From positions 620,001 through 684,000 of the forward strand of contig JAIBCL010000001.1 of NCBI GenBank assembly GCA_019694165.1: a stretch of DNA of 64,000 bases. The letters are read 5' to 3'. Below the pieces are notes generated by a model. That model worked only from the letters and a program-made list of their open reading frames with translations. It was not told where the DNA came from and did not search any database. Below are positions 4,589 through 54,547 of this stretch, piece after piece. Source of the DNA: Verrucomicrobiaceae bacterium (GTDB taxonomy: Bacteria > Verrucomicrobiota > Verrucomicrobiia > Verrucomicrobiales > Verrucomicrobiaceae). Position 1 is the stretch's first letter. Each line of letters starts with the position of its first letter. The position numbers and the translations under genes were made by a program.

Positions 4589-6706
<2,118 letters not shown>

Positions 6707-6771
6707 TCCGCCCTCCGGCATCCGGGCCACGTTGTCGCCAGTTCGTTCCGGTCGTTGTTTTCATCCTTCGC

Positions 6772-36325: not shown

Positions 36326-39300
36326 TCACGGTCTCCACACCAGCGGAACGACAAAGCTCGGCTTGTCGGCCACGGACTTGATGAAGGCCGCGCGCATGGT
36401 GCCGAAGAGGAGGGCATCGTTGAGATTGGTCAGCGAGGCATCGCCAGTGGCGGTCCACTGCTGGAGGGGGCCGCTGTTGAGGAGGAATTCAGTGGCGTAG
36501 CCGGCGGTGCCATTGGCTGCGTCGCCTTTCCAGATGTGGATTTGGTCGGCGCTCGATGCGTTGCGTGAGCCGATGAGGCCATTGGCGAGGGTCATGCCGA
36601 GTGAAGTTGCCGATTGCGCGCCGGGCCATGGATTGGCGATGAGTTTGGTGCCGGCTTTCAGCGGGAGTGAGATGGCATTCGCGCGGACGATGCCGCTGAA
36701 CGTGAGATTCACCGGTTCGCTTCGTGCCTGGACGAGCACGCCCTCGGTTTCGTCGATGATTCGGCCGCCAGCATTAGCAAGCGTCGCATCGTCTTCGCGG
36801 GTCCATTGCTGGTAGCCATCGGCGCGCTTCCAGAGCCAGAGCGCTTCGAAGGCGCTGCCGTTGTAAAAGAGAAGACGATCAGCGGTCGAGCGCTGTGACG
36901 TGCCGCGGAAGAGTGTCTCAGGAAACATTTCGCTGACGGTGCGATGTGCACGAATGGCGATGGTATCGCCGACCAACGACGAAGGAAGTGTCGCGAGTGT
37001 GCTGCGAGCGGCATTCGCTTCGATGACAAGGCGGCCGCCGGTGCTGGCTTCTTCATCGATCTCGAAGCGCTGGCCTTCATTCACGCCGCGCGTGACTTCG
37101 AGATAACAGCTCGCGCCTCCGAACGATGGTGCAGCACGATCGAGCGTGAGCGAATCAGCCGAGACGCCCGTGGTCATCGCGGTGCCGAGCGCGGGCGTGG
37201 CAAATGGCACGCCGGCGGTGGCTGTGCCAACGGGATAGGCTGCGCGAGTGAAACCGACGGTGTCGCCTTCCTTGGTCGAGTCGGCGAATCCATCGCCATC
37301 GCTGTCCACTTCCTGATGCAGACGGGCGAATCCTTTGTCAGCACCCGTGAAGAGCGATGTCACATCGGAATACGACACGGTTTCCGTGCCGTCGCCGTTT
37401 GAAGCGATCGTCGGTGATGCCGTGGCGACGCGCCAGCCGGCGGGTGATTGCGCGAGATCGTCGAGCAGGTGCAATTCATAGCGTGCGGCGCTGTTCGCAG
37501 GACGTGTGAAGGCAAGGCCGAGTGAGCCGCTGCCGCTTTGCATCGAGACGAGTTCGGGGAAGTTCGTCGTGCTCGATGTGAGCGATGCGAGTGTCGCCGT
37601 CACGGTAGTGCTGAGAGCTGCACCCGGCGTGCCGGTGATCGCGACATTGTCGAAGGTCGCTGTGCCGAGCACGCTGTTGTTCGCGCTGGTCACGCAGAGG
37701 CCGAACATCACATTCGATGGCAGCGAGGTGAGGGTGATCGCCTTCACCTGTGTCCACGTCGTGCCGTTGGCGGAGGCGTAGCCGGCGATCGTGTTGCCAG
37801 AGCGCACCAGGCGCACCCAGTTGTTCGGCGGCGCGTTGTTGGCCGGACCACTGACATCGGTCGTCACTCCGTTCGTCGCAGAGCGCGACATGAACTCGAA
37901 GCCGTTCCGCGTTTCGTATGGCGTCACATACATGATCGCGTGTCGCGAGCCGACAGCGCGGCTTTCGCGGATCATCACACCGGCTTTGGCCCACGAAGCG
38001 GTGTTCGTCTGGCTGGTGATGCGCGCTTTGATTTCGCCATCGCCAGTGATGCTCGTGGAGGCGAAGTGGAAGCTGTCCTGCGCATAATAGATGTCCACGC
38101 CTGAGCCCTTCACGGTGTAAACGCCGCTGCTGAGCGATGTGCTGCCAGCAACCCCGACGAGTCCGATGTCCGCGCCGATCAAAGTCGTGCCGCTGCTCGT
38201 CGCGAGCGTCGTTGCACCAACGGGTCCTGCCGTGCCAGCGCCGACGATGTTGAAGGCGGAGACTTTGTAATTGTAGAGCGTCGATGCGGCGAGCCCGGAG
38301 TCGGTGAAGCTGAGGCTGCCCGCTGCGAGCGAAGCGATTTCCGCGAAAGTGCCCGAGCCGGTCGCGCGTTCGACGCGATAGCCCGTCTCGTTTGTTGACA
38401 CATCGGTCCATGTGAGGCGAATCGACGAGCTGCTCTGCGCTGATGCCGCGAGATTCGTCGGCGCCGCCGGCGCAGTCGGCTGCGCGGTGGTGCCGATGAT
38501 TTGCACGTTGTCGAAAGTCGCGGTGCCGAGGCGTGTGTTGTCCACGCTCGTGACACAAAGACCGACGAACATCGTGGAGGCGAGCGAGCTGTAGCTCGCA
38601 CTGTGGATTTGCGTCCACGTAACACCATCCGCCGACGCGTAGCCGACGATCGTGTTGCCCGTGCGCACGAGTCGCACCCAGTTGTTTGGCACCGGATTGT
38701 TCGCCGGGCCGCTGATGTCGGTGGTCGCGCCGTTCTTCGTCGTACGCTTGAGCATTTCGAAGCCGTTTCGCGTCTCGACCGGCGTCACATACGTCGTGCC
38801 GTGACGGCTGCCGACGGAGAGATCTTCGCGGAACATCACACCTGCCTTTGCCCACGACGCGGTGTTCGTCTGGCTCGTCACGCGCGCGCGGATCTCACCA
38901 TCACCAGCAAGCGACGCGTAGGCGAAGTGGAAGCTGTCCGTGTTGTAGTAAATGTCAGCGCCCGAGCCATTGATCGTGTAAACGCCATTCGCGAGCGTCG
39001 TGCTGCCAGCCACGCCGACGGAGCCGATGTCGAGCGCGGTGAGCGTTGGTGGCGGAGGCGTGGTGGAATACGAAACGCTCAGCGTGTTCGAGGCCGTGTT
39101 GCCGAGGTTGATCGCGTTCACACAGCTTCCGGCTGGCAGAGAAATCGTGACCGCGCCTGCTGCCGTCGGCGTCACAGCCACTGTGTAGATCGATGGGCCG
39201 CCCGTCAGTGCGCCCGCCGTGCCGTTTGTGATCGTGAAATCGCTCGCGGTCAATCCGCTGACCGATTGCGTGGCCGTGATCGTCACATTGAAGGCACCCG

Positions 39301-42300
39301 TTGCTGTTGCCGGACCTGTCAGCGTCATGCCCGGCGCACCGAGCACGGGCGCACTGGCTTCGCCGCCGTCGATTTGCTGGAGATAAGAGACGAGATTGTT
39401 CAGCTCGGTCGTCGTCAGCGTCACGCCTTGATGCGCCTGCACGGCGGCGGCCAATGTTTGCGCTGTGCCATCGTGAAGATACGGAGCCGTGGCCCAGAGG
39501 CCGCGCAGCGTGGGCACATCGAGTCCGGTCAATGCTGCGCCGAGACGCTGGCCCGTGCTCGGCTTGATGGTGCCGATGTTTGCGAAGACGTTCAGCGCGC
39601 TGTTCGTGAACTGAGCCCCGCTGTGGCATTGCGCGCAGTTTGCATTTTCAAAGACAGCTTTGCCAGCAACTGCCGCTGTGGTGAGCGAACCGTCCGCATT
39701 TCGGAACGGACTCACGTCCTGCGTCGAAAGCGATGTCACATAAGACGCCAGCGCATCGAGATCGGCACTGCGACCGGCGTTCGGCGTGCCCATTGGCGGA
39801 TGCGGATCACCGCCCGCGATGAGTCCAGTGCCGAGATCGAGTCCACGCAGTTGGTTTTCGAAGTCCTGCACTTCATCGAAGTTGCCCGTCCAGTGAAGCG
39901 GCCCCTGCGCCGTGCCGCCGTGACCGCGAAGGCCGATGGTGTTGCGCAGGCCTTCGCCGAAGCCCGTGAAGTCCCACGTGCGACCATCCTGTCCGCCGTC
40001 GTTGTGACACGAGGCGCACGAGATGTATTGCTGGAAGGCGATGCGCGGATCAGCCGAGTCATAGAAATGCTTTTTGCCGAGCAGCACGTTCGGCGCGAGC
40101 CGCTCGGTCGTGATGCAGTTCAGCGTGGCCGTCAGCGCCGGATTCGTGTCCGCGCCATCGATCAACATGCCCACGTCATGCACGGTGATCGTGCGATCCA
40201 TGAAGTTCTGCACGAAGACCGTGCGACCATCCGGCGATACAGCGACTCCCTGTGGCGCGCGGCCTGCGGCGAACCGTTTGATCTCCTTCTTGTTCCAAAC
40301 ATCCACCACGCCGATCTCGCGACTACCCTCCAGCGCGGTGAAGAAATAGATGCCCGTGCGCTCGAAGGCGCCGTTGCTCGCGATGCCGGCGTTGTCGAAA
40401 TCGACGCGCCTCGGCATGTCGTCCGTGTTGGCCGGCACGCCGCTTGTCAAAACGATGCGACTGGCGACGCTGCGCACCGTTTGGTCGTGCGTGAGCTGCG
40501 AACCATCGCGCAGCATGCCGCGCAAGATGTTGTCCTGCTTCGATGGCACCCACGCAGTGAGTCCATCTGGCGAGATCACAGCAGGGCCGAGGTAGTTTGG
40601 AATGCCGCGACCGGTGTTGATCGTGTCAGGGCGCGTGCTGTGAGTGAGAATGCTCTTCTTCTCGATCGCTAGCGATGCGGTGAGAATACTCAGCGTCTCG
40701 CCGCCGGTTGTGTCCGTCGGAGAAACGGTCGCGGTGTTTTCACCCGGCAACTGAGGCGTAATGAAGCGCGTGACGAACACGCGTGCGCCATCCGCGCTCA
40801 CCGAGATGTGGCGCGCATTCACACCGACATCGAGCGTGGCGACTTGTGCCGCAGTCGTCGGATTCATGCGCAAAAGCTGGCCGGTGCCTTCGCAGACGAT
40901 CCAGCCGTCCGTGCCGTCGGGATCGAAGGCGATGCCGAAGGGTCGCGAACCGCGCGGCAGCGTGAGCGTCTGCACCACAGCCAGTGTGCTGCCGCTGATG
41001 ATGCTGACCGTGCCGCTCTCGTTGTTCGTCACCCAAACGCGGCCATCCGGCGCGAGTGCGAGCGCGCGCGGCGAAGTGCCGACCGTAGTCTCGGCGAGTC
41101 GCGCGCGAGTGACGGCATCGAAGACGGACACGCTGTTGTTGTCCGGATTCACGCACCACACGCGGTCGTTCGTGCCAGTCGGACGATCTTCAAAGATGAT
41201 GCTGCTCGATGCGCTCGGCGCGCGAGTCGTGAGCGGCGCGAAGATGCCCTGGAAGAACGTGGCCGTCGTGATGCGACCTGTGTCATCCGTCGCTGTGAGC
41301 GTGATCAAATAGCGACCCGGCGCTGCATACGTGTGCGAGGCCGTGGTGTTCGTGCTGAGCGGCGAGTCAGCCGTGCCATCGCCCCAGCTCCACTTGTAGC
41401 GCACGTTTGCGCCGCCAGTGCTCGATGCCGTGAAGGTCACCGCGCTGCCGCTGACCTTCGGCGGCGAAGCAGAAGGCTGATTGAGATTCACGATGTCGTT
41501 CACCGTCCACGCAAAGTTCACTGACACCGCGGCATTGCGGCCATCGCTCACGCTCACCGTCGTGTTGTTGCTGCCCGTCGTCGTGAGAGTGCCGCTGATG
41601 AGGCCCGTCGCCGGATTGATCGACAGACTCGCTGGCAATCCCGTCGCGCTGAAAGTGAGTGCGTCGCTGTCCGGGTCAGAAGCGACGATTTGCAGCGCGA
41701 CATCGCTGCCGACCACATCGGTGCGCGCGCCAGGATTCGTAACGAGCGGCGCGCGGTTGTTCACCCACGGCGAGAGGTATTGGCCGGCGATCACGACTGG
41801 CATCACACTGCCGGGAGTGGCCCATGCGATGGCGAGATTGTCACCACCGCCGCCTTCTTTCATGAGGGCTTCGACGTAGTAGCTCTGGCCGGCCTGCAGC
41901 GTGATCACCGCCGACTGCTGCTCGGGGAATTTTGTCCACTCACGCGAGCTGCTCCACTGCGGCACGTTTGCGATCAGCGTCTTCGCACCAGGATCGCGAC
42001 TCGTGGAAAGGAAGAGCTGGCCTTCGTCATCACTCGCGATCCAGAAGCGATACTGGCCAGTCACCGGCGGATGAATGTAGCCGCGCACGCGCTGGCCCAT
42101 GTTGTCCGCCCAGTCGGTCGGCGTCTCGAAGGACGTGAGCTGTGAGTTGCCCGTCGGTGAATTCGGATACGCTGCTGCGCTCGTGAGATTGGAAACGAGC
42201 ACGCCGGTGATGCCGGTCCACCACTCGCGCAGAATGCTGCCGCTGCCTGTGTTCGTGAGCAGCACGGTCCACGTGAAGTTTTGCGAAGCCGACAAGCCGC

Positions 42301-44140
42301 CGCCACTCGCTGTCACCCGCACATTGAAGACACCGCTCTCAGTCGGCACGCCGGAGATGAGGCCGTTCGCGCTGCCGATCGTGAGGCCGCCCGGCAGACC
42401 CGTGGCCGAAAACGTCGGCGTCACACCGGTCGGAGCCGTGGCGCTCATTTGCAAAGAAGCCGGTGAGCCGATGTTCGACGTTTGATTGCCCGGCTGCGCG
42501 ACCGTAATCACTGCGCTCGCATCGACCTTGACTACTTTCGCCACGGAATACGCGCCGCTCGCATTCACGCCAAAGAGCATCCAGTAGCCAGGCGTCACCA
42601 CATTCGTGTTGGCGTGCATGTTGATGTCGTAGCTGCCTGCTGCTGTCTCGGTGAATGGCAGCGAGAGATAGCGCTGGTCGGTATTCACCGAATGCGTCAG
42701 CGCCGCCATGCGGATGAAGGCAAACTTCGCGATTCCCGATGTGCCTGTGACGCTGAACACCGCACTCGGAGCAACGGCTGTGGGCGCTGTATTCAACACC
42801 GGACGCACAGCATCCGCGCCAGTCGAAGTGAAAAGGGTTGGCGGCGTGTAGAGCTGTGCGTCCTGATGATCGCCCGCACCACCGCTGAGTCCGCCACCGC
42901 CGGAATACACGCGGCCATCCGGCAGCAGCAGCGCCACGCTGTGATAGTTCCGCCCGACGGCGATGCTTCCGACTGTGCGCCATGTGCCGGTGCTGGGACT
43001 CCAGATTTCGCAGGGCAACACCGAGCCTGTGTCGCTGAATTTCTGACCGGGGCTGTTGCCGCCGATCGCGAGCACTTCGCCCGTCGGCAGCACGACGGCA
43101 TTCACAAACTGCCGCGCAAACTGCATCGACGCCGTCGGCGTCACAGTCGGCGGACTCGTCGTCATATCGACGGTGTAAGCCGCATTCGTGCTGGTGCCGA
43201 TGGTGCTGTCGCCCGCGCTCGCCGTCGTGTTGATCGAGCCACCAGCCACGAGCACTTTTCCTTCGTCATACATCACGAAGCAGCCTTCCTTCGGGTAATG
43301 CGCGCCGGGCACGCTGGTGCCGGTGTTCGTGAAGCTGCCGGTGTTCGCCATGTTGAACCAATGCATCGTGTCCGTGGGGCCGAAGTGCAGCAGCCGACCA
43401 TCCGGCGCGAGGCTGAGGAAAGGATGCCAGTGTGTGTTGTAGCCCGCATTGGTGCCGATCACGCTTGTCCACGGAATGCCCGTCATCGCGGTCCAGCCCG
43501 TGCCGGTCCAGCGTTCGGTCGTTGTTTGTCCGGTGCCGCTGCCAGTCGCCGTGAAGACGTTGCCGTTTGGCAGGGAGACGGATGTGTTATACCAGCGGCC
43601 GCCGTTCATGTTTTGGACGCGAGTCCATGTATTGTTTCGCCAGTCGAAGATGCTGACGTAGGGCGTTTCATTGCGACCACCGTTCACCATCACGCGACCG
43701 TCGGGCATCAGCGTGATGCCACCGCAGAACATGTCGTGTGTCGAGTTGTTGAATTCCTGAAACGCACCCGTCGCCGGATTCCACGTGGCTGCGTAGGTGA
43801 ACTCAACGCCCGCAGGAAACGACGTGCGTTGATTGGAGGCAAAAGTCAGGACACGACCATCTGGAAGATTCGCGGCCGAGACGGGAATGTGCGGCGTCCA
43901 ATTGATCAGCGAACTCCACTCGCCGAGGCTGCTGCTGTCTGCGGCTGTGACCGCTGCGCCGATCGTGACCGTCACCGTCGTCGCCAACGCAGCGCCAGGA
44001 TTTGCCTGTGCTGAGAGTTGAGCAGCGGCCAATGCGAGTTCGTCGTCTGCTGCGTGACCGGTGGCATCGGCGCGAAGACGCGGAGACGCGAGAGCCAGCG
44101 CGATGAGAATCAGCAGGAGGAGTCGGGATTTCGTGATCAT
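36326..44140 (-). CDS. Giant secreted galactose-oxidase-like copper radical oxidase fused to PA14, propeller and di-haem peroxidase domains
   Basis: 2604 residues with a signal peptide (1-24). Domains: galactose-oxidase kelch propeller (70-430) plus its E-set domain (440-540). By alignment to fungal galactose oxidase (Cys228, Tyr272, Tyr495, His496, His581) the copper/radical residues are Cys139 (DMFCGG), Tyr184, Tyr399-His400 (RNYHS) and His483 (THSVNTDQR). Then an Ig-like domain (545-627), PA14 (635-785), Ig-like (797-880), PKD (885-965), a YVTN-type propeller (980-1325), a di-haem peroxidase-like domain with CASCH (1375-1379) and CAQCH (1502-1506), Ig-like (1600-1695), a lectin-like repeat (1700-1883), FN3 (1888-1985), a second repeat (1987-2170), and a C-terminal domain shared with the other giant. 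It starts 13 bases after the MbnP-peroxidase fusion gene ends. Confidence 0.85.
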   Translation of the reverse strand: MITKSRLLLLILIALALASPRLRADATGHAADDELALAAAQLSAQANPGAALATTVTVTIGAAVTAADSSSLGEWSSLINWTPHIPVSAANLPDGRVLTFASNQRTSFPAGVEFTYAATWNPATGAFQEFNNSTHDMFCGGITLMPDGRVMVNGGRNETPYVSIFDWRNNTWTRVQNMNGGRWYNTSVSLPNGNVFTATGSGTGQTTTERWTGTGWTAMTGIPWTSVIGTNAGYNTHWHPFLSLAPDGRLLHFGPTDTMHWFNMANTGSFTNTGTSVPGAHYPKEGCFVMYDEGKVLVAGGSINTTASAGDSTIGTSTNAAYTVDMTTSPPTVTPTASMQFARQFVNAVVLPTGEVLAIGGNSPGQKFSDTGSVLPCEIWSPSTGTWRTVGSIAVGRNYHSVALLLPDGRVYSGGGGLSGGAGDHQDAQLYTPPTLFTSTGADAVRPVLNTAPTAVAPSAVFSVTGTSGIAKFAFIRMAALTHSVNTDQRYLSLPFTETAAGSYDINMHANTNVVTPGYWMLFGVNASGAYSVAKVVKVDASAVITVAQPGNQTSNIGSPASLQMSATAPTGVTPTFSATGLPGGLTIGSANGLISGVPTESGVFNVRVTASGGGLSASQNFTWTVLLTNTGSGSILREWWTGITGVLVSNLTSAAAYPNSPTGNSQLTSFETPTDWADNMGQRVRGYIHPPVTGQYRFWIASDDEGQLFLSTSRDPGAKTLIANVPQWSSSREWTKFPEQQSAVITLQAGQSYYVEALMKEGGGGDNLAIAWATPGSVMPVVIAGQYLSPWVNNRAPLVTNPGARTDVVGSDVALQIVASDPDSDALTFSATGLPASLSINPATGLISGTLTTTGSNNTTVSVSDGRNAAVSVNFAWTVNDIVNLNQPSASPPKVSGSAVTFTASSTGGANVRYKWSWGDGTADSPLSTNTTASHTYAAPGRYLITLTATDDTGRITTATFFQGIFAPLTTRAPSASSSIIFEDRPTGTNDRVWCVNPDNNSVSVFDAVTRARLAETTVGTSPRALALAPDGRVWVTNNESGTVSIISGSTLAVVQTLTLPRGSRPFGIAFDPDGTDGWIVCEGTGQLLRMNPTTAAQVATLDVGVNARHISVSADGARVFVTRFITPQLPGENTATVSPTDTTGGETLSILTASLAIEKKSILTHSTRPDTINTGRGIPNYLGPAVISPDGLTAWVPSKQDNILRGMLRDGSQLTHDQTVRSVASRIVLTSGVPANTDDMPRRVDFDNAGIASNGAFERTGIYFFTALEGSREIGVVDVWNKKEIKRFAAGRAPQGVAVSPDGRTVFVQNFMDRTITVHDVGMLIDGADTNPALTATLNCITTERLAPNVLLGKKHFYDSADPRIAFQQYISCASCHNDGGQDGRTWDFTGFGEGLRNTIGLRGHGGTAQGPLHWTGNFDEVQDFENQLRGLDLGTGLIAGGDPHPPMGTPNAGRSADLDALASYVTSLSTQDVSPFRNADGSLTTAAVAGKAVFENANCAQCHSGAQFTNSALNVFANIGTIKPSTGQRLGAALTGLDVPTLRGLWATAPYLHDGTAQTLAAAVQAHQGVTLTTTELNNLVSYLQQIDGGEASAPVLGAPGMTLTGPATATGAFNVTITATQSVSGLTASDFTITNGTAGALTGGPSIYTVAVTPTAAGAVTISLPAGSCVNAINLGNTASNTLSVSYSTTPPPPTLTALDIGSVGVAGSTTLANGVYTINGSGADIYYNTDSFHFAYASLAGDGEIRARVTSQTNTASWAKAGVMFREDLSVGSRHGTTYVTPVETRNGFEMLKRTTKNGATTDISGPANNPVPNNWVRLVRTGNTIVGYASADGVTWTQIHSASYSSLASTMFVGLCVTSVDNTRLGTATFDNVQIIGTTAQPTAPAAPTNLAASAQSSSSIRLTWTDVSTNETGYRVERATGSGTFAEIASLAAGSLSFTDSGLAASTLYNYKVSAFNIVGAGTAGPVGATTLATSSGTTLIGADIGLVGVAGSTSLSSGVYTVKGSGVDIYYAQDSFHFASTSITGDGEIKARITSQTNTASWAKAGVMIRESRAVGSRHAIMYVTPYETRNGFEFMSRSATNGVTTDVSGPANNAPPNNWVRLVRSGNTIAGYASANGTTWTQVKAITLTSLPSNVMFGLCVTSANNSVLGTATFDNVAITGTPGAALSTTVTATLASLTSSTTNFPELVSMQSGSGSLGLAFTRPANSAARYELHLLDDLAQSPAGWRVATASPTIASNGDGTETVSYSDVTSLFTGADKGFARLHQEVDSDGDGFADSTKEGDTVGFTRAAYPVGTATAGVPFATPALGTAMTTGVSADSLTLDRAAPSFGGASCYLEVTRGVNEGQRFEIDEEASTGGRLVIEANAARSTLATLPSSLVGDTIAIRAHRTVSEMFPETLFRGTSQRSTADRLLFYNGSAFEALWLWKRADGYQQWTREDDATLANAGGRIIDETEGVLVQARSEPVNLTFSGIVRANAISLPLKAGTKLIANPWPGAQSATSLGMTLANGLIGSRNASSADQIHIWKGDAANGTAGYATEFLLNSGPLQQWTATGDASLTNLNDALLFGTMRAAFIKSVADKPSFVVPLVWRP
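37631..39043 (-). repeat. Two copies of a 184-residue lectin-like repeat inside the copper oxidase giant
   Basis: Residues 1700-1883 (38492-39043) and 1987-2170 (37631-38182) are clearly homologous. Each has a DIYY..DSFHFA start, GDGEI(R/K)AR(V/I)TSQTNTASWAKAGVM, PPNNWVRLVR-like and TATFDNV blocks. They resemble concanavalin-fold DUF1349-type modules. Five more copies lie in the giant at 46.5-53.6 kb. Confidence 0.8.
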
Positions 44141-44153
44141 GCGAGTTCGGGAG

Positions 44154-46262
44154 TCAGCGCGGACTGGATTGAGAGAGGCTCGTCTTTGGTGTGGTGAATG
44201 CGGCGTCTGTCAGCGTGCGGAGGAAGGCCACGAGATCGGCCTTCTCCTGCGCGGTGAGGCCAAGTCCTTCGGAGGGATGCTTCGCGAGATTCGGATCGAG
44301 CGTGTCGCTGCGGACGACACCGTGGTCGTAGTGCTCGATCACTTCTTCGAGCGTCGCGAAGCGGCCGTCGTGCATGTAGGGCGCGGTGAGAGCGATGTTT
44401 CGCAGCGAAGGCGTTTTGAATTTGCCGCGATCCGCCGCGCTCTCCGTCACGGCTTCGCGACCGATGTCACCCGCAGCAAGCGGCAGGCCATTGTTGTGGA
44501 AAGCGCGATCGGTCACCAGCATCCCGCCATGGCAATGGAAGCAATCCGCGCCGCGAAACCCGCGCTTCGGATCGTGCTCGGTGACGAAGAGCTGGAGGCC
44601 GCGAGCTTCCGATGGCGTGAGCGTCGTTTCTTTGCGAAGCGCACGATCAAACTTCGAGTCCTGCGAGATGAGTGTGTGGAGGTACTGCTCGAGTGCGAGA
44701 CCGATGCGCGCGGGGGTGATCAGGTCTGGAGACCTGATTGCCGCAGACAGGTCAGGAGACCTGTCCTCCGTCGCGTTGGCGAAGACTCGCGCGAATTGTT
44801 GGCGCATCGCGTCGTCTGCCGAGAGCTTCGCGACGACGCGATCGAGCGACTCGTTCATCTCGTGCGCATCCTGGATCGGCATCAGCGCCTGATTCCGCAG
44901 ACCGACGGCGCGACCGTCCCAGAAGAAATCCTGCTGCCAGAGCAAGTTGAAGAGCGGCATCGCATTCCGCTTTCCGATCTGGCCCTCGGCTCCAATGCTG
45001 AAGCGCTTGCCGGGATCAGCAAAGGCCGCCGAGCGATCATGGCAGCTCGCGCAGCTTTGCGTGTTCGTTTTGGAGAGTCGTTGATCGTGGAAGAGCTTCT
45101 CTCCGAGCGCGACGCCTTCGATGGATGGCATGTTGTCCTTTGGAATCGACGGCACCGGAAAACGTGTGGTGATTTCGAGGGGGAAGGGAGTGGTTGACGG
45201 TGATCGTGGACGTTCTCGCGAAGGCAAATCGTCCCCCTCACCCCAGCCCTCTCCCGCAGGGAGATAGAGTTGTTGGCGCTGCCGCGCCGCTGGCGAAAGT
45301 AGTCCAGACACTTCGTGACTGGAGTCGTCGAGTGCTGCTTCGTGTTCCTTCGACAATGGCGCAGAGCGCTCTCGTCTCCCTCTCCCTTGGGGAGAGGGCT
45401 GGGGTGAGGGGGAATCGTTTGGCTTCCCGACACCGGAGAACGGCGCGACCGACTGCAAGTCGGTCCCACTTTGAAGCGCGAGATCGTGATAGCGATCGGA
45501 CGACACGCTCTTCACGCGAAAGGCTTGTTCGATGTTCGTCTTCAGCCGCGCAGCCAGCTTGTCGCCCTCGCGCGAGTGAGTCGAGTCTCCGTCCTTTGCG
45601 ATGTCGATGCCTCGGAAGACTTTTGCCAAATCAAATGCGAGACGAATCGTGCCGACGCCGGCTTCGCCGAGCTCGACCGGCAGTTCGACGCGCATGAGGC
45701 TCCAGTTGTTCGCGATGTGATATGACCAGCCGCCGCTAGCAGCGCCTGGAGGATAGGCCTCCGGCCTGTCAACGGCTGACAGGTCTCCTGACCTGTCAGC
45801 CCCACGACTCCACCGCCCTTCCATCGCGAGGAAGATGTAACTCCCCGCCCAGCCCCAGTGAAGACCGTTCACCAGCGGGTGCAGAGGATGATCGGCTGCC
45901 CGCATGTTGGGATCGGAGGCGTTGGTTGCGGCATCGAGGCCGACATTGAAACGAATGGCCGTGAACTTCGCGCCCGGCACGCCTTCGAGTAGCCCGAGAT
46001 GTTTTCTCTGATCGGCGCGGAAGCAGGCAAACCAGTTCTTCGACTCCAACCACGATCCATCCTCGCGGCGCAACGCGACGTTGCTCAAGAGAAAATCGAG
46101 ACGCGAGACGCTCAGCCTCGCGCCCGCCGCATCCCTTCCCTGCTCTCCCTTCTCTTGATCGAGCGCCAGCGGCTCCTCGCCCCAGCACGGCTGGATGTCG
46201 ATGTTGATATCGCGCACAGGCTGCGAAGCCGCGAACGCTACGCTCGAAAAGAGCATGAGCAT
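44154..46262 (-). CDS. Fusion of an MbnP-like domain with an MbnH-like di-haem cytochrome c peroxidase
   Basis: 702 residues from ATG 46262, chosen because it begins the signal peptide MLMLFSSVAFAAS; the frame is open to 46475. Residues 15-250 are MbnP-like: RLSVSRLDFLLSNVALR, FTAIRFNVGLDAATNASDP, and NGLHWGWAGSYIFLAMEG with Trp136 and Trp138. Residues 370-690 are a di-haem peroxidase with CASCH (404-408) and CFHCH (574-578) plus APYMHDGRFATLEEVI. In methanotrophs MbnH uses H2O2 to turn a Trp of MbnP into kynurenine at a copper site; here both partners seem to be in one chain. Surface loops and the linker (264-355) contain translated palindromic repeats. The next gene starts 13 bases on. Confidence 0.82.
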   Translation of the reverse strand: MLMLFSSVAFAASQPVRDINIDIQPCWGEEPLALDQEKGEQGRDAAGARLSVSRLDFLLSNVALRREDGSWLESKNWFACFRADQRKHLGLLEGVPGAKFTAIRFNVGLDAATNASDPNMRAADHPLHPLVNGLHWGWAGSYIFLAMEGRWSRGADRSGDLSAVDRPEAYPPGAASGGWSYHIANNWSLMRVELPVELGEAGVGTIRLAFDLAKVFRGIDIAKDGDSTHSREGDKLAARLKTNIEQAFRVKSVSSDRYHDLALQSGTDLQSVAPFSGVGKPNDSPSPQPSPQGRGRRERSAPLSKEHEAALDDSSHEVSGLLSPAARQRQQLYLPAGEGWGEGDDLPSRERPRSPSTTPFPLEITTRFPVPSIPKDNMPSIEGVALGEKLFHDQRLSKTNTQSCASCHDRSAAFADPGKRFSIGAEGQIGKRNAMPLFNLLWQQDFFWDGRAVGLRNQALMPIQDAHEMNESLDRVVAKLSADDAMRQQFARVFANATEDRSPDLSAAIRSPDLITPARIGLALEQYLHTLISQDSKFDRALRKETTLTPSEARGLQLFVTEHDPKRGFRGADCFHCHGGMLVTDRAFHNNGLPLAAGDIGREAVTESAADRGKFKTPSLRNIALTAPYMHDGRFATLEEVIEHYDHGVVRSDTLDPNLAKHPSEGLGLTAQEKADLVAFLRTLTDAAFTTPKTSLSQSSPR
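44719..44765. repeat. Two tandem hairpins inside the peroxidase coding sequence
   Basis: ATCAGGTC-TGGA-GACCTGAT (44719-44738) and GACAGGTC-AGGA-GACCTGTC (44746-44765) are perfect 8-base stems with 4-base loops. On the coding strand they give two near-identical peptides, RSPDL-SAAI-RSPDL (residues 501-515), just before the conserved ITPxxIxxAL helix. The same hairpin core recurs at 45776-45799. Confidence 0.75.
45232..45413. repeat. Perfect 24-base inverted repeat in the linker coding region
   Basis: A CCCTCACCCCAGCCCTC-type unit at 45232-45255 recurs as its exact reverse complement at 45390-45413. The right copy also carries its own hairpin (CCTCTCCC-TTGG-GGAGAGG). Such units are familiar as intergenic repeats, but here they are read in frame as SPSPQPSPQGRG and PAGEGWGEGDD in the linker between the MbnP and peroxidase domains. 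Confidence 0.75.
45448..45464. repeat. Short hairpin repeat encoding a GTDLQSV peptide
   Basis: ACCGACT-GCA-AGTCGGT is a perfect 7-base stem with a 3-base loop. It is translated on the minus strand as GTDLQSV (residues 266-272), just after the MbnP-like domain ends. Confidence 0.6.
45776..45799. repeat. Hairpin repeat inserted in a loop of the MbnP-like domain
   Basis: CTGACAGGTC-TCCT-GACCTGTCAG is a perfect 10-base stem with a 4-base loop. A second small hairpin (AGGCC-TCC-GGCCT) lies just to its left. It encodes about 16 extra residues (around 152-176, with RSGDLSAV) that the standalone MbnP paralogue at 53.6-54.5 kb lacks at the same place. Confidence 0.75.
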
Positions 46263-46471: not shown

Positions 46472-49400
46472 TCATCGAATCGAGGGTGCGAGGATGAGTG
46501 TCGTGGTCGTCGTGGTGCCTGCGCGCTTGAGGAAGACGGCGCGATTGGCGATGAGCAAGGCAGCGTTGGACTGATCGGTGAGCGTCGCATTGTCCGCGCT
46601 GGTCCAGTAGGTGGACGCGCCGATCTGCGCGAACCAGAAGCTGGCAAAAGTCTGCGCGCCGCCGGGAGTGTCGGCGTTCCAGTCGAGGAGCATGTCGGCG
46701 ATGGTCTTCGAGCGCGAGGCGATGAAGCCGTTGGCCGCATTGAACGCAGCGCTCGCTGGCGAGGCGGTGACCGGGAACGGCCGCGCGATGAAGTTCTGGC
46801 CGGGCCGCAGCACCTGCACGAAGGGATTCGTGCGCACGGGGCCGGCGATGATCATCGAAGCGGCGTGGGCGGCTTTGACAAACATGCCCTCACCCGGCGC
46901 GATGATGCGCGCGCCAGCATTGGCGAGCGTGGCGTCGCCGGCCGAAACCCAGGCCGCTTTCGAGGCATCGGCAGGCGTCAAATTGAAGAGCCAGTAGCTG
47001 GCATAGTTGCCACCGGTGTAGAAGCTGACCCTGTCCGACAGGCTTGAGGAGCGGCTGCCGGTGAGCACGGATTTGTCCAGCACATCATCAAGCGTGACGT
47101 GCTGGCGGATGACGATGGCCGCGCCGGTGAGATCAGGCAGCGCGGCGGAAGTATTGCGCACGGAGGCAAGGTCGATCACGACGGCCGTGCCGGCAAAGGT
47201 GGCGATGTCGAAGCGATGCCCGGCATACGCGCCGTCGCGCACTTCGAGGTAGTAGTGCCGCGAGGGATCGCCGCCGAGCGACGTGGGGAGCAAGACCGAA
47301 TTTGCCGTGACGCCGGTGACAAGGCCGGCATAGAGCGGCGGCTTCACGTTTGCGCAGCCAAACGTCTCGCTGCCCGCGCCGAAGCTGATGCGTGAGAGCG
47401 AGAACGGCTCGCCCGTGGTCGTGCCTCCGCCTGAAAGATGCGTGACGCGAAGACGGAAGAAGATCGTGAAGTCTCCAGCATCGCCGAGCAGCGAATCGAT
47501 CGCGGGATAGGCGATGGTGCGGATGGCATCCGTGCCGTCGGTGAAAACGGGAGCGATGCCGGTCGCGGTCCAAGTCGCGAGATCTGCCGATGCCTCGACT
47601 TGATACGAGAGGTCGGTGCGATCCAGCGGATGACGGATGCTCGCGCTCCAGCGGCCATCCGGCTGCTTCTCGATGCGCAGGCCGGCGGCGTCTCCACCGT
47701 CGCGCGGATCGGTGCCGAGGGCGTACTCCATGAGGTCGGAGCCGTAGTCGCCATCCGCATTGTCGCCGCGCGCGCCGACCTCGTAGTCACCGAGCCACTG
47801 GCTCCAGCTCATCGCGGGCTGCGCCAACGGCTCCAGTGCGGCACGCACGCTTTGCGATGCGGGCGCGGCGGGGGTGCCGGTGACGACGACGCTGTCAAAC
47901 GTCGCGGTGGCCACCTGCGTGTTGTCCGAAGACGTGAGCGCGAGTCCGAAATAGGCCGATGCAGGCAATGTTGGAAGCGTGGCGGAAAAAGTCTGCGTCC
48001 AGTTCGTGCCATTGGCCGAAGTGTAGGCGGTAAGCACGGTGCCCGAGCGCTTGATACGCACCCAGTTGTTCGGCGCAGGATTCGCGGCCGGCCCCTGCGC
48101 GAAGACGCGCGTCGCTCCGCTGTCGGTGCGGTAATTGCCGGCGAAGCCGTTCTGAGGCGTGAGGAACGAGAGACCGAACGCGGATGGCTGCGAGAGGTCG
48201 GCGCGGATCATCACTCCGGCCTTGGTCCACATGTTTGAATTGGTGATGCTGGTGATGCGCGCCTTGATCTCGCCATCACCGGTGATGCGCTGCTGCGCGA
48301 AATGGAAAGTGTCCGCTCCGCCGTAGATGCCGTCACCTGCCGCGGCGAGCGTATAAGCGCCACCGCTCGCGAAGCTGGTGAAACCGGCCGGCGACACGGG
48401 GCCGACATCGACGCCGGCGAGCGCGCCCGCGGCGGGCGCGGTGATGATCTGCACGTTGTCAAAAGTGGCCCTGGCCACCAGCGAGCTCTCGGACGCGGTG
48501 ACCGCGAGACCGATGCGCGTCGTGGACGAGAGGGCGCTGATCGATGTGGCGAATATCTGCGTCCAGTTTGCACCGTCGGCGGATACGTAGCCGCCGAGCA
48601 CATTGCCCGCGCGCACGATGCGAATCCAGTTGTTCGGCGCGGCATTCAGGGCAGGGCCGCCGGCAAAGATGCGCGTGCCGCCGGCGGCGGTGCGGTAATT
48701 GCCGGCGAAGCCGTTCTGCGGCGTGATGAAGACGAAGCCGAACGGTGCAATCGTCGCGAGGCTGTCGCGGATCATCACGCCTGCCTTTGACCACGGGTTC
48801 GTGTTGCTGAGGCTCGTGACGCGCGCGCGAATCTCGCCATCGCCCGACAGCGTGGTGCTGGCGAAGTGGAATGCATCGGCGGTGCTGTAGATGCCATCGC
48901 CCGAACCGCTCACCGTGTAGCTGCCCGCGCCGCCGGATGAAGTGCTGCCGGCGATGGCGACCGCGCCCACGTCGGCCCCGGCGAGCACCGGTTGCGTCCC
49001 CGGCTCGGTGGTAAGCCATGTGAAGCTCGCGCTGGCGCTCAGCGAGCCGTCCGAGACGGCGACGACGACGCTGTTCGTCGCGAGCGCGCTCGTGCTCACG
49101 GTGCCGCTGATGATGCCGCTGCTCGCATTGATCGAGAGGCCGGCGGGCAGTCCGGTGGCTGAATAGCTGAGCGCGTTTCCATCCGGATCTGCGGCCTGGA
49201 TTTGCAAAGCGACCGACGAGCCGCGCGGCGTCGATTGACCCGCCGGCTGGGTGACGACCGGCGGGCGGTTGCCCGTGATCGGGCCGACGATGATCTCCAC
49301 ATTGTCGAACGTGGCAAAAGCGCGGTCGTTGTTGTCCGAGGCGGTGACCGCGAGTCCGATGTAGGCGGTGCTGGCGAAGCCGGAGATCGTCGTCGTGAAG

Positions 49401-52400
49401 ATGGGCGTCCACGCGGTGCCATCGGCGGACACGTAGCCGCTGAGCACGTTTCCGGTGCGCACCACCCGCACCCAGTTGTTTGGCGGGGGATTGAGTCCGG
49501 GACCGGCCGCAAACTGGCGTACTCCGCCGGTCGTGAGCCGGTAGTTGCCCGCCAGTCCATTCTCCGTGGTGACGAACGCGAGACCGAAGCGCGAATCAGG
49601 CGCGAGTGACTCGCGGATCATCACGCCGGCCTTTGCCCACGGATTGGCGCCGGTGAGACTGGTCACACGCGCGCGGATGTCACAATCGCCACTGACCGCG
49701 GTGCTGGCGAAATGGAACGAGTCCTCCGTGCCCGTGATGCCGACACCGGATGCGCTGATGGAATACGTGCCGGTGGTGCCATCGAAATTCGTGCCTCCAT
49801 TCGGAGAGATCGCACCGATGTCGAGTCCGGTGAGCGCGGCCTGCGTGGCACCGCCGATGATGGTGACGTTGTCGAAAACGGCGGTGGAGAGTCGCGACAC
49901 ATCGCTGGCCGTGACCGCGAGTCCGATGGAAACCGACGACGGCAGCCCGCTGAGGGCAATGGAGGACACCTGCGTCCATGACTGGCCGTCCGCCGACACG
50001 AAGCCGGTGAGCACATCTCCCGCGCGCACGAGGCGCACCCAGTTGTCTGGCGCGGCATTGAGCGGCGGTCCGCCGGCATATTCCGCCGCCGCGTCCTGCA
50101 CTGCGCGCCACACCATGCCGAAGCCGTTCTCGGGCGTGACAAAGGTCATCGCGTGACGCGAGCCGCCGGTGAGATTCTCGCGGACCATGACGCCGGCCTT
50201 TGCCCACGGGTTCGTGTTTGTCTGGCTGACGACGCGTGCGCGAATCTCGCCATCGCCCTGCAGCGTGCGCCACGCGAACTGGAAGCCATCGGCGTTGAAG
50301 AAGATGTCCTCGCCGGATCCGCTGATCGTGTAAGCGCCGGTGGATGCGTTCACGCTGACGCTGCCCGTCTGGCCTACCACGCCGACGTCAGTGCCGGTGA
50401 GATTTGTGCCACCCGAAGAACTCGTGCTCCATGTGAAGGACGCGCTGGCGCTCAAGACGCCGTCGCTGACGGCGACGATCACCGGATTCGAAGCCGCGGC
50501 GGATGCGCTGACGGTGCCGCTGATGACGCCGGTGGACGGATCGATCGACAGCCCCGCGGGCAGGCCGCTGGCGATCCATGAGAGGATGTCGCCGTCCGGA
50601 TCGCTCGCCTGGAGTGCAAAGCTGACTGCGGAGCCGCGCAGGGTGAATTGATCCTGCGGCTGCGTGATGGCCGGCGCGTGATTTTGCTGCGACGAGCCGC
50701 CGAGCTGCACGTTGTCGAAGGAGGCGGTGCTGAGCACGCCGTAGTTTGACGACGTGACGACGAGGCCGATGTACACTGTCGATTGCAACGCTGGCACGAC
50801 GCCGATGTGCACGAGCGTCCACGAGTGTCCGTCGGCGGACGTGTAACCGCTGAGCGAATCGCCCGAGCGCACGATGCGGATCCAGTTGTTTGGAGCGGCA
50901 TTCGATGCCGGGCCGAAGAAGAACTCACTGGGCTGCGCGGTGGCGGCGCGGAATTCGTAGCCGAAGCCGTTCTCCGGCGTGAGAAAGCAGACGGCGTGAC
51001 GCGAATCTTCACTGAGCGACTCGCGGATCATCACGCCGGCCTTCGCCCACGGATTGGTGTTCGTCTGGCTCGCGACGCGCGCGCGGATTTCGCCATCACC
51101 CTGGAGCGTGGTCCATGCATATTGAAAGGCGTCGGCCGTGCCAAAGATGCCGGAACCTGAACCGTTCAGGGTGTAGCTGCTGTGGTCGGCGCTGCCGCTG
51201 GTGCTGCCGGATGCGCCAACCGCGCCGACATCGGCACCGGTCAAGGCAGGCTGCGAGACGACCAGGGAATTGATCCAGTCCGCGATGGTGGCGACGGCGG
51301 CAGTGTCCACGACGTTCTTTGCCAGCGGAGGCATCTTCGCATCGGCGAGGCTGTTCAGGCGGATGTGCATCATGCTGCGCGATACATCCTTCGGCACGAC
51401 GACCTTCGCGCCAGAAACGCCGAGGTCGTTGAAGAGCGGACCGTTGATGATGTTCGCGTTCGCGAGCGGCGTGTCGAAGCGCGCATCCCAGTTCGCACGC
51501 ACGCCGCCGGGTCGGTGGCAGTGCGAGCAGTTTGAATCGAGGTAGGAGCGCGTGCGCGTTTCCAGCGAGGCTGATGTGTCCGTGAGCGGCACCGTTTTGG
51601 TGAAGCCGGCGATCTGCGTCGAACTCAGCGGCGTGTCGAACATGCCGATGGCGCTCCATGTGGCGAGCTGGTTCGCGGTGATGCCGGTCGTGGGATACGT
51701 GAGATTGCCATTGAGCTGACGGGTGTTCGGTCCCAGCACCCAGCCTGCGTTCTCGGTGTGGCAGTTCATGCAGTCACCGCGGCCGGGGAAAGTCCAGTTT
51801 TGCGTGCGCGTGCCGCCGTCAGACGTGGTGATCGTGACGGGCATGTTCTCGCCGTTGACGAGCAGGTCTGCATTGGAGCCATCGGCGCGCCACTTGTAGG
51901 TGAGGCCGTACCAGCCGTCGGTGCCGCGCACGAGAAAGCGCGTTTCGATGCGGCGGACGATGAAAGGATTCGATTCGTTCGTCGCCAGGTCGAACTGCTT
52001 GATGAGCACGGTGCCGACGGGAAAGTTCCAACTGCCGGTGGCAGAAAAGTTAATGACCTCGCCGCCGGAGTACGGTGCGCCGTCGTTCGGCAGCGCGATC
52101 CAGCGTTGCTTCAGCGCATTGTCGGTCCAGAGCGGTGAATTGACGTTGTAAGGGATCACGCCGGAGGCGGGCTGGAGATTTGCGAGGCTCGAGAATGCGC
52201 CGGTGGCGGAAAGCGTCGCGGGTGGCTGCGCGGTGCCGCCGGTGGAGGAGAGGCGATAGATTCTGCCACTCGTGCCCATCGTGCAGAAATAGAGTTCGTT
52301 CTGCGCATCGACGGAGAAGCCGCTCAAAGAGCTGCCTGAAATCTGCGTGAGCAGCGAGGGCTGCGCGCCGGGCGTCTGCCAGTCGAGCGACCAGATCTTG

Positions 52401-53578
52401 CCCGACACGTAGTCACCGAAAATGTATTTCCCGATGAGGCTGCCCGGCAGCCGGCTGCCACGATAGACGAAGCCGCCAATCACTGCAGCGCCGCCGCCGT
52501 TGTGCGAGTACGTCAAGATCGGCGCGGTCTCGGTGCCGATGACGGAAGCCGGCTTCGCCTTTGGCCCGGTGATGGTGCCTTCGAGATAGCCCCACTGATA
52601 GTTCGCCGCCTTCGCGAGCACGTCGATCTCCTCGGCATCCTCCTGCCCCACGTCGCCGATGACCGCCTTGCCCGTGGCTCCATCGAACGACATGCGGTGC
52701 GGGCTGCGCAACCCGATCGCGTAGAATTCTTCAAGCGTGCCTCCCGTGGGATCGACCCACGGATTGTCATTCGGAATATAGTAGCCCTGCGTGAAGGTCG
52801 CGGGCCAGCCCGCGGGCGGCACGCCGCCGACCTGCGGTTGACGCCGGATGGGATGGCTGCGCGCGGCGTCTTGATTCACGTCGATGCGCAGCACGCCGGA
52901 GAAGATGCCGTCATTGATCTTCTGCGCGTTGTTGTAGATCTCGCCGAGCGCGCCCTCGTCGCCCACGCTGATGTAGAGGAACGAGTCCGGCCCGAAGAAC
53001 ATGTCGCCGCCATTGTGCCAGGGGTTTTCGTCGAATTGGTTGATCATCACCAGCTCGCTGGAGCGGCCGATCGTCGTCGCACCGTCGTTGAGCGTGTAGC
53101 GCGAGAGGCGGTTGTAGCTCAGCTCGCCGGATCGCGTGTCAGGCACATAGCTGTACCAAATATAGACATGCCCGCGATGCGCGGCGCCGGACAGACCAAA
53201 GTCTGGATGCAGCGCGATGCCCAGCAGCCCGCTGTCGCCGCCGCCAAGCGTGTTCGATGCGAGATCAACGACCAACGTCCTCGTGGTGCCCGGCGAATTC
53301 TTGTCAAAGCGCCACACCTTCCCCTGACGTGTGATCACCCACATCATCGAGCTGCGAGGCTCCTGCACCATCTTGATCGGATCATCGAACGTCACGCCCG
53401 GAAACGCGTCCTCCGCCATGTAGCCGCCACCGGTGCCAGGCGATGTCGAGGGAAACGCGCCGTTCAGATACGCGCCCATCGGCTGGCGGCTGGCGAGGCC
53501 GGACTGTGCGAGCGCAGAGCCGCCAAGCGCGGCACACATCAGCAAGAGGGAAATTGAGGAGTGGATTGTCTTGTTCAT
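46472..53578 (-). CDS. Giant secreted PQQ sugar-dehydrogenase/cytochrome c protein with five lectin-like repeats
   Basis: 2368 residues with signal peptide (1-25). Residues about 45-450 are a glucose/sorbosone dehydrogenase propeller of the soluble PQQ type: LGGGDSGLLGIALHPDFG, PWHNGGDMFFGPDSFLYISV with the base His, and GLRSPHRMSFDGATGKAVIG. Residues 455-775 resemble the cytochrome part of SO_0930-type proteins, with CMNCH (603-607) and CSHCH (684-688). Five 184-residue lectin-like repeats follow (starting at 779, 1060, 1249, 1532, 1719), with two cadherin/Ig-like putative domains (965-1050, 1437-1522). The C-terminal 460 residues match the end of the other giant. It would oxidise a sugar and pass electrons to its haems. 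It starts 12 bases after the MbnP-like gene. Confidence 0.87.
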   Translation of the reverse strand: MNKTIHSSISLLLMCAALGGSALAQSGLASRQPMGAYLNGAFPSTSPGTGGGYMAEDAFPGVTFDDPIKMVQEPRSSMMWVITRQGKVWRFDKNSPGTTRTLVVDLASNTLGGGDSGLLGIALHPDFGLSGAAHRGHVYIWYSYVPDTRSGELSYNRLSRYTLNDGATTIGRSSELVMINQFDENPWHNGGDMFFGPDSFLYISVGDEGALGEIYNNAQKINDGIFSGVLRIDVNQDAARSHPIRRQPQVGGVPPAGWPATFTQGYYIPNDNPWVDPTGGTLEEFYAIGLRSPHRMSFDGATGKAVIGDVGQEDAEEIDVLAKAANYQWGYLEGTITGPKAKPASVIGTETAPILTYSHNGGGAAVIGGFVYRGSRLPGSLIGKYIFGDYVSGKIWSLDWQTPGAQPSLLTQISGSSLSGFSVDAQNELYFCTMGTSGRIYRLSSTGGTAQPPATLSATGAFSSLANLQPASGVIPYNVNSPLWTDNALKQRWIALPNDGAPYSGGEVINFSATGSWNFPVGTVLIKQFDLATNESNPFIVRRIETRFLVRGTDGWYGLTYKWRADGSNADLLVNGENMPVTITTSDGGTRTQNWTFPGRGDCMNCHTENAGWVLGPNTRQLNGNLTYPTTGITANQLATWSAIGMFDTPLSSTQIAGFTKTVPLTDTSASLETRTRSYLDSNCSHCHRPGGVRANWDARFDTPLANANIINGPLFNDLGVSGAKVVVPKDVSRSMMHIRLNSLADAKMPPLAKNVVDTAAVATIADWINSLVVSQPALTGADVGAVGASGSTSGSADHSSYTLNGSGSGIFGTADAFQYAWTTLQGDGEIRARVASQTNTNPWAKAGVMIRESLSEDSRHAVCFLTPENGFGYEFRAATAQPSEFFFGPASNAAPNNWIRIVRSGDSLSGYTSADGHSWTLVHIGVVPALQSTVYIGLVVTSSNYGVLSTASFDNVQLGGSSQQNHAPAITQPQDQFTLRGSAVSFALQASDPDGDILSWIASGLPAGLSIDPSTGVISGTVSASAAASNPVIVAVSDGVLSASASFTWSTSSSGGTNLTGTDVGVVGQTGSVSVNASTGAYTISGSGEDIFFNADGFQFAWRTLQGDGEIRARVVSQTNTNPWAKAGVMVRENLTGGSRHAMTFVTPENGFGMVWRAVQDAAAEYAGGPPLNAAPDNWVRLVRAGDVLTGFVSADGQSWTQVSSIALSGLPSSVSIGLAVTASDVSRLSTAVFDNVTIIGGATQAALTGLDIGAISPNGGTNFDGTTGTYSISASGVGITGTEDSFHFASTAVSGDCDIRARVTSLTGANPWAKAGVMIRESLAPDSRFGLAFVTTENGLAGNYRLTTGGVRQFAAGPGLNPPPNNWVRVVRTGNVLSGYVSADGTAWTPIFTTTISGFASTAYIGLAVTASDNNDRAFATFDNVEIIVGPITGNRPPVVTQPAGQSTPRGSSVALQIQAADPDGNALSYSATGLPAGLSINASSGIISGTVSTSALATNSVVVAVSDGSLSASASFTWLTTEPGTQPVLAGADVGAVAIAGSTSSGGAGSYTVSGSGDGIYSTADAFHFASTTLSGDGEIRARVTSLSNTNPWSKAGVMIRDSLATIAPFGFVFITPQNGFAGNYRTAAGGTRIFAGGPALNAAPNNWIRIVRAGNVLGGYVSADGANWTQIFATSISALSSTTRIGLAVTASESSLVARATFDNVQIITAPAAGALAGVDVGPVSPAGFTSFASGGAYTLAAAGDGIYGGADTFHFAQQRITGDGEIKARITSITNSNMWTKAGVMIRADLSQPSAFGLSFLTPQNGFAGNYRTDSGATRVFAQGPAANPAPNNWVRIKRSGTVLTAYTSANGTNWTQTFSATLPTLPASAYFGLALTSSDNTQVATATFDSVVVTGTPAAPASQSVRAALEPLAQPAMSWSQWLGDYEVGARGDNADGDYGSDLMEYALGTDPRDGGDAAGLRIEKQPDGRWSASIRHPLDRTDLSYQVEASADLATWTATGIAPVFTDGTDAIRTIAYPAIDSLLGDAGDFTIFFRLRVTHLSGGGTTTGEPFSLSRISFGAGSETFGCANVKPPLYAGLVTGVTANSVLLPTSLGGDPSRHYYLEVRDGAYAGHRFDIATFAGTAVVIDLASVRNTSAALPDLTGAAIVIRQHVTLDDVLDKSVLTGSRSSSLSDRVSFYTGGNYASYWLFNLTPADASKAAWVSAGDATLANAGARIIAPGEGMFVKAAHAASMIIAGPVRTNPFVQVLRPGQNFIARPFPVTASPASAAFNAANGFIASRSKTIADMLLDWNADTPGGAQTFASFWFAQIGASTYWTSADNATLTDQSNAALLIANRAVFLKRAGTTTTTTLILAPSIR
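47876..51244 (-). repeat. Five copies of the 184-residue lectin-like repeat inside the PQQ giant
   Basis: Copies lie at 50696-51244, 49850-50401, 49283-49834, 48437-48985 and 47876-48424. Shared blocks are GDGEIRARV, NPWAKAGVMIRE, APNNW(V/I)R(I/L)VR, SGY(V/T)SADG and ATFDNV. Spacers between the first and second and between the third and fourth copies are Ig-like domains. The DNA similarity makes this a possible assembly trouble spot. Confidence 0.85.
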
Positions 53579-53590
53579 GGCCAGCCAGGT

Positions 53591-54547
53591 TCATCCGTCG
53601 AGGTCGTTCGAGTGGCGCGTTGAAAGGGTTCGCGGGCACGCATGGGCGGCAGTTGCGCGCAGATTTGAAGTTCGCGCGGTCCATTCGCCGCACGCCTGGC
53701 CAGGCACGGCATCTGCAAACTCCTGATGCCTCCCCGCCACGACTCGTCGCACTCGGAAAGCCGATTCGACGTTGCTCTTCAGCAGCCGACCGCGTGTTCC
53801 GCCCTCGATCCCGCCCTCCGCTTCGCCAGCAACGGGATTGAGTACGGGCGAGGCACCACGGAAGATTTTTTCCACGTCGAGAGCCAGCCGGATGGTCTGC
53901 GGCCCTGTGGGACCGAGCACGAGCGGCAACTCCACATGCATGAGGTTCGCATCCCCTTCGACGTGCCACGAGTAGGGCGCAAAGGTCCCGTCCGGCCTCT
54001 GGCAGCGCCCCTCTACTGCCAGAAAAATGAATCCGCCCCGGCTGCCCCTGTGCAGGCCGTTTACCAGTGGATGCAATGGATCATGATCCCCACGTCCAGA
54101 GGGGTCGGCGGCGTTCGTTCGTGGATCGACGCCGACTTGGAACCGGATGGCGTTGAACCTCCGTGCGGGCACGCCGCCGATCCGTGCCGTAAAGCGCCCT
54201 TTGTCGGATCGGAAGACGGCGAACCAGTTCGGCTCCTCGAGCCACGCGCCATCCTCCCGCCGCAGGGCCATTCCGCTCAAAAGGAAATCCAACCGCGATA
54301 CAGTCAGCCGCGCGCCATCCGAAGTGCTGCCGACTTCCGCTGCCAGCGGCAGGGGTCGATCCTCCCACACGACGGCTATCTCCAGATTTACATCCCGATC
54401 CACCGGCGAGACCGCCTCTGCCCTTCCCGCCGCCACACCAAGAACCAAGGCAATGAGACAGATGGCGAGGGTGATTCCACGCGCACCTGCCCGTCCGAAT
54501 GGCAACGGACCAAAAGCGGCATGGTTGACTGGCTGAACTATTATCAC
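53591..54547 (-). CDS. Standalone MbnP-like protein without the conserved Trp
   Basis: 318 residues from a GTG; no ATG lies near the membrane segment (GITLAICLIALVLGVAAG), so the start is uncertain. The MbnP-like domain covers about 50-270 and is plainly related to the N-terminal half of the fusion protein: RLTVSRLDFLLSGMALRREDGAW, FNAIRFQVGVDPRTNAADPS, HDPLHPLVNGLH, and HVELPLVLGPTG. Where the fusion has LHWGWAGSYIF this protein has LHRGSRGGFIF, so both Trp are missing; the codon AGG at residue 167 is one base from TGG. The last 35 residues match nothing. It probably opens the redox gene block as copper-binding partner or decayed copy. Confidence 0.75.
   Translation of the reverse strand: MIIVQPVNHAAFGPLPFGRAGARGITLAICLIALVLGVAAGRAEAVSPVDRDVNLEIAVVWEDRPLPLAAEVGSTSDGARLTVSRLDFLLSGMALRREDGAWLEEPNWFAVFRSDKGRFTARIGGVPARRFNAIRFQVGVDPRTNAADPSGRGDHDPLHPLVNGLHRGSRGGFIFLAVEGRCQRPDGTFAPYSWHVEGDANLMHVELPLVLGPTGPQTIRLALDVEKIFRGASPVLNPVAGEAEGGIEGGTRGRLLKSNVESAFRVRRVVAGRHQEFADAVPGQACGEWTARTSNLRATAAHACPRTLSTRHSNDLDG

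Follow-up and report, generated by a model that had tools for sequence, protein, structure and literature searches.

The window, a 64,000-nucleotide stretch of a contig from a Verrucomicrobiaceae bacterium, encodes a protein in which an MbnP-like domain and an MbnH-like di-haem domain are joined in one chain. This is a real, conserved enzyme-substrate fusion, the families and anatomy of which are well supported. It probably acts as a single-chain MbnP/MbnH pair that makes its own kynurenine copper site; the link to a neighbouring oxidase is the weaker part of this claim. The gene and its parts are located as follows.

44154 to 46262, minus strand: MbnP-MbnH fusion, 702 aa (773 aa from a possible upstream start at 46475)
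45579 to 46211, minus strand: MbnP domain, residues 18-228 (PF20243; fold match 7l6g)
45849 to 45857, minus strand: WxW motif W136-G-W138, near-universal in the 58 distinct fusions and aligned with the WNW of 7l6g
45717 to 45719, minus strand: H182, candidate copper ligand, invariant in fusions and aligned with a His of 7l6g
45576 to 45578, minus strand: H229, candidate copper ligand, invariant in fusions and Gly in the solo paralogue
45192 to 45479, minus strand: linker, with low pLDDT at residues 258-352 and 105 aa between the domain profiles
44190 to 45146, minus strand: MbnH/MauG-type di-haem domain, residues 373-691 (TIGR04039; fold match 6e1c)
45039 to 45053, minus strand: haem-binding motif 1, CASCH 404-408, with C404, C407 and H408 invariant
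44529 to 44543, minus strand: haem-binding motif 2, CFHCH 574-578, invariant
44859 to 44921, minus strand: W448/Q458/P462/E468, with the spacing of MauG W93/Q103/P107/E113
44328 to 44330, minus strand: Y645, at the haem-ligand position of MauG Tyr294, invariant and aligned to a Tyr of 6e1c

The minus-strand translation from 46262 to 44154 is open for 702 residues. The two CxxCH sites that a preliminary description placed in the C-terminal half are present in it as CASCH and CFHCH, and the numbering given there for Trp136 and Trp138 is correct in this translation, where NGLHWGWAGSYIFLAMEG corresponds to residues 132-149. A second in-frame ATG, at 46475, overlaps the stop of the preceding gene in an ATGA, and the Met at 46262 lies inside the hydrophobic core of an apparent signal peptide. 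Judged from the sequence, 46475 is more likely than 46262 to be the true start, and the MbnP domain is apparently exported.

In order to place the two halves, both were submitted to profile searches. The N-terminal half matched the Pfam family MbnP (PF20243) over residues 18-228 with an E-value of 1.7e-28 and a score of 100.3 bits, versus a curated cut-off of 27. The C-terminal half matched CCP_MauG (PF03150) from residue 382 on (177 bits, E 3.7e-52) as well as MbnH (TIGR04039, E 9.6e-66), which was the best of all NCBIfam models for this protein. The N-terminal half thus falls within the MbnP family and the C-terminal half within MbnH/MauG, as the preliminary description had proposed, and its main proposal, that the two partners are fused in one polypeptide, is borne out by the single open frame and by 58 distinct fused frames. 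A chance fusion or a sequencing error is ruled out by these 58 frames, most of which have linkers of 21-28 aa. The window protein missed the equivalog cut-offs of both NCBIfam models, with 222.1 bits against 362.85 for TIGR04039 and a weak 27.8 bits (E 1.5e-6) against 140 for TIGR04052 (MbnP_like_WxW), so the fusions are related to the methanotroph pair without being equivalogs of it. Three MbnPs that are separate proteins in other phyla (Bacteroidota, Sumerlaeota) likewise fell below the TIGR04052 cut-off, at 34-50 bits. A direct sequence search of the PDB with the N-terminal half alone gave no match, while a profile of this half found 7l6g as its sole match (E 0.013).

The folds were compared on AlphaFold2 models of two proteins, that of the window and its relative L024, built from fusion-only alignments (pLDDT 75.8 and 80.2, pTM 0.77 and 0.79, respectively). 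The N-terminal half of the window protein superposes on 7l6g, the MbnP of Methylosinus trichosporium, with a Z-score of 18.8 (210 residues aligned, rmsd 3.7), and that of L024 with a Z-score of 18.1; unrelated structures score only 4-5 against this half in the two models. The C-terminal half is closest to 6e1c, the record of which is entitled MauG-like protein associated with copper homeostasis (Z 29.7, 301 residues, rmsd 2.2; Z 26.1 for L024). When bacterial di-haem peroxidases were superposed on the MbnH half, the alignment started at residues 134-138 in the window model and at residues 149-152 in that of L024. Both start points correspond to the HWxW segment, located where the peroxidases have their N-terminal segment. 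The WxW loop thus seems to dock on the MbnH half, in line with the preliminary description, an observation that is suggestive only, since the peroxidase rows are mutually homologous and both models share an alignment.

In MauG, Trp93 is located between the haems, Gln103 and Pro107 lie in the distal pocket and Tyr294 is a ligand of the second haem (PMC6405878); Glu113 appears in the same paper through a cited title and its BthA counterpart. Residues W448, Q458 (+10), P462 (+14), E468 (+20) and Y645 of the fusion match MauG W93, Q103, P107, E113 and Y294. The first four are invariant in alignment A1, P462 being near invariant in alignment A2, and Y645 sits at the Met position of classical peroxidases, so that a Tyr, not a Met, faces the second haem. 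The full MauG catalytic set is present in the di-haem domain of the fusion. The source genome also encodes a cytochrome c assembly protein.

In the MbnP half, no fusion with a readable alignment column lacks W136, whereas W138 is replaced by a Pro in L043 and kept in all others. On this pattern of conservation, W136 is more likely than W138 to be the predicted target Trp. H182 and H229 are kept in all aligned fusions, and the alignment shows no conserved Met in this half. In M. trichosporium MbnP, the first Trp of WxW is reportedly converted into kynurenine and copper is said to be held by a His, a Met, solvent and the kynurenine, according to a 2021 PNAS study. With no conserved Met, the copper site of the fusion must differ in part from this one. 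The copper site of CorA, formed by two His and a kynurenine (PMC3912023), may offer a closer picture of the predicted H182/H229 site.

The distribution of the fusion was examined in a 289-genome sample of Verrucomicrobiota and in 80 named loci. MbnP was found in 16 of the 289 genomes, always in frames of fused length save for the solo copy of the window and fragmentary hits in two genomes. The fusion hosts are soil and water bacteria. Among the 80 loci, those of Verrucomicrobiota are fused, while in Bacteroidota and in one Sumerlaeota genome the order is the same but the genes, two or three side by side, are unfused. In many of the Bacteroidota loci L047-L068, a single MbnP gene precedes a tandem of two distinct MbnH-like genes. 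On the trees of both halves the fused state requires two changes. For the MbnH half, a constraint that keeps all fusions in a single clade is not rejected (p-AU 0.65, the log-likelihood being 13 higher under the constraint). Both these trees and the unfused gene order of Bacteroidota are accounted for by one fusion event between neighbouring genes. Many independent fusions are not needed, and the fusion appears to be a family trait of Verrucomicrobiota with essentially one origin. The source genome has a second fusion, at 5444-7228 of locus L126 (G000:C34), which belongs to branch B of the fusions, carries the motif HWSW and lacks an oxidase neighbour.

The window fusion belongs to branch A, and its surroundings comprise three further genes.

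36326 to 44140, minus strand: galactose-oxidase-like copper-radical oxidase, 2604 aa, next gene downstream, with PKD, propeller and di-haem cytochrome domains
46472 to 53578, minus strand: glucose/sorbosone-dehydrogenase-like protein with two CxxCH, 2368 aa, preceding gene
53591 to 54547, minus strand: solo MbnP paralogue without MbnH half (W136->R, W138->S, H125->D, H229->G)

At its N-terminus, the downstream product has a galactose-oxidase-like domain (PF09118, and weakly PF07250); it matches the solved galactose oxidase 9g8h with an E-value of 8.8e-87. The Cys, Tyr, Tyr-His and His of the copper-radical site align with those of solved galactose oxidases in the motifs HDMFC, RWY, NYHS and THSVN. 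The combination of a copper-radical oxidase with haems is in itself unusual: the two-CxxCH stretch of this protein, which is kept in relatives, resembles the profiles of hydrazine synthase gamma (E 1.1e-19) and MauG (1.6e-12). Of 26 branch-A loci, 23 have the oxidase gene directly downstream of the fusion, against none of the 28 loci of branch B; at the branch-A loci L007, L013 and L015 it is found elsewhere in the genome. Among 57 relatives, the oxidase occurs, adjacent or not, in 20 of the 21 genomes with a branch-A fusion and in 0-1 of the 36 without, the single case being a distant homologue of 38% identity; this co-occurrence has a Fisher p of about 4e-13 before correction for kinship, and is confounded by shared ancestry. 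Genomes G004 and G019 were classified from partial copies at contig ends. The oxidase neighbour of branch A is a new observation of the present analysis.

Galactose oxidases need copper and release peroxide, and MauG-type enzymes need peroxide. In Streptomyces, the copper-radical oxidase GlxA depends for its maturation on the chaperone Sco and on the haem peroxidase DtpA, which uses the peroxide of GlxA (PMC4736821). The conserved neighbourhood in branch A suggests that the fusion is a copper chaperone which matures itself and serves an oxidase that produces peroxide. By analogy with Streptomyces we regard this link as a good hypothesis; branch-B fusions, which have no galactose-oxidase neighbour, and the three branch-A loci with a distant oxidase gene count against it.

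The solo MbnP opens the operon, ahead of the glucose/sorbosone-dehydrogenase-like gene, the product of which is by family not a copper enzyme. This giant protein contains five DUF1349 repeats, and its gene is not found upstream of the fusion in a same-genus relative, which has only the fusion-oxidase pair at this locus. In the tree, with an SH-aLRT support of 97, the solo MbnP groups with the MbnP halves of the window fusion and of this relative; its branch is long (0.66 versus 0.19). This position indicates that it descends from the fusion, and it has since lost H125, H229 and both Trps as well as the whole MbnH half. A joint loss of modifier, target and ligand is what the single-chain model predicts, and the solo MbnP fits, although one case proves little.

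In the mechanism that we propose on this basis, hydrogen peroxide would bring the two haems into an oxidised state of the bis-Fe(IV) type. The oxidised centre would then turn W136, whether on the same molecule or on an adjacent one, into kynurenine, which together with H182 and probably H229 would form a high-affinity Cu(I) site. Intramolecular kynurenine formation is likely, in keeping with the intramolecular Trp substrate predicted in the preliminary description; residence in one polypeptide does not by itself imply it, as two copies could react. In branch A, the copper protein might in turn serve the adjacent galactose-oxidase-like enzyme, and the peroxide of the latter might drive maturation of the fusion, much as DtpA and Sco serve GlxA. 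Combined, a self-maturing kynurenine chaperone, peroxide from the oxidase and copper loading would constitute a closed feed-forward loop within one operon, a tentative extension that is rather doubtful as a whole.

Alternatively, the fused domains could react in trans, the MbnH half modifying the MbnP half of another molecule, or another protein such as the oxidase, for instance in aid of the Tyr-Cys cofactor of the latter. The linker, short (21-28 aa) in most fusions and long and disordered in the window copy, would be compatible with this, as would the conservation of the oxidase neighbour in branch A and the fact that di-haem peroxidases are commonly dimeric (PMC10094543). However, both monomer models place the WxW loop on their own MbnH half, and WxW and both His persist in branch-B fusions, which have no such neighbour, so we consider a reaction in trans unlikely. 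Less likely still is that the fusion is mainly a peroxidase that guards the oxidase and the cell from the hydrogen peroxide of the neighbour, the MbnP half serving only as an anchor or as a route for electrons from copper. The neighbour is peroxide-forming by family and such a second role has been proposed for DtpA (PMC4736821), but branch B has no oxidase neighbour, and neither the strict conservation of WxW and His in the MbnP half nor that of a Tyr of the MauG type, where classical peroxidases have a Met, would be expected of a plain peroxidase.

The state of the window copy itself also has to be considered, since its linker contains a repeat.

45232 to 45413, strand not given: dispersed palindromic repeat element with 49-nt arms, in frame in the linker, ends CCCTCACCCCAGCCCTCTCCC

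This element of about 180 bp, translated in frame, makes the linker longer by 80 aa than the 21-28 aa typical of the fusions. About 50 such elements are present in the genome (about 100 half-sites, versus 0 in a reversed control). The element was rejected as the creator of the fusion in the source genome, because relatives without it are also fused. Short palindromes, ACAGGTC-N4-GACCTGT, lie in frame in the MbnH half (44721-44771) and in the MbnP half (45765-45800); only four ACAGGTC...GACCTGT sites exist genome-wide, two of them within the fusion gene. None of the three insertions occurs in the aligned relatives, which, together with the lengthened linker, could point to a decaying or non-functional member of the family, and the window copy might be impaired by the insertions in its linker and both domains. 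Yet the frame stays open across all three, those in the linker and the MbnP loop lie where the model is loop-like and of low confidence, all catalytic residues are intact and the end branch of this copy is short (0.16-0.19). Decay is thus improbable.

The closest known system is MbnP/MbnH of M. trichosporium OB3b (7l6g, 6e1c), which shares both domains, their order from MbnP to MbnH, the WxW motif and the di-haem domain with its Tyr ligand position. It differs in that its proteins are separate, whereas the window fusion is one chain with an MbnP half devoid of a conserved Met, and in that the latter neighbours a galactose-oxidase-like enzyme; no methanobactin genes were recognised around the window fusion. 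MopE/SACCP and CorA/CorB of methanotrophs likewise combine a copper protein carrying a Trp-derived kynurenine with a neighbouring di-haem protein (PMC3621798, PMC3912023), but they are encoded by separate genes and the partner is not markedly MbnP-like in sequence (PMC3621798). MauG, with the same W93/Q103/P107/E113/Y294 set, oxidises a Trp of its partner, pre-methylamine dehydrogenase; in contrast, that partner is separate and the product is tryptophan tryptophylquinone. In Streptomyces lividans, the copper-radical oxidase GlxA has a copper chaperone of its own, Sco, and a haem peroxidase, DtpA, that uses the peroxide it makes (PMC4736821), but chaperone and peroxidase belong to unrelated families and are separate proteins, whereas the fusion would unite both roles in a single chain. 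The open-access papers searched contained no description of the fusion; subscription papers lay outside this search, so priority is not established.

The reaction between MbnH and MbnP has so far been studied with two separate proteins that first have to meet. The fusion fixes enzyme and substrate at 1:1, and opens a one-chain version of this reaction directly to structural studies and to single-turnover spectroscopy. In the oxidase that is its conserved neighbour, there is a testable client for kynurenine copper sites outside methanotrophs.
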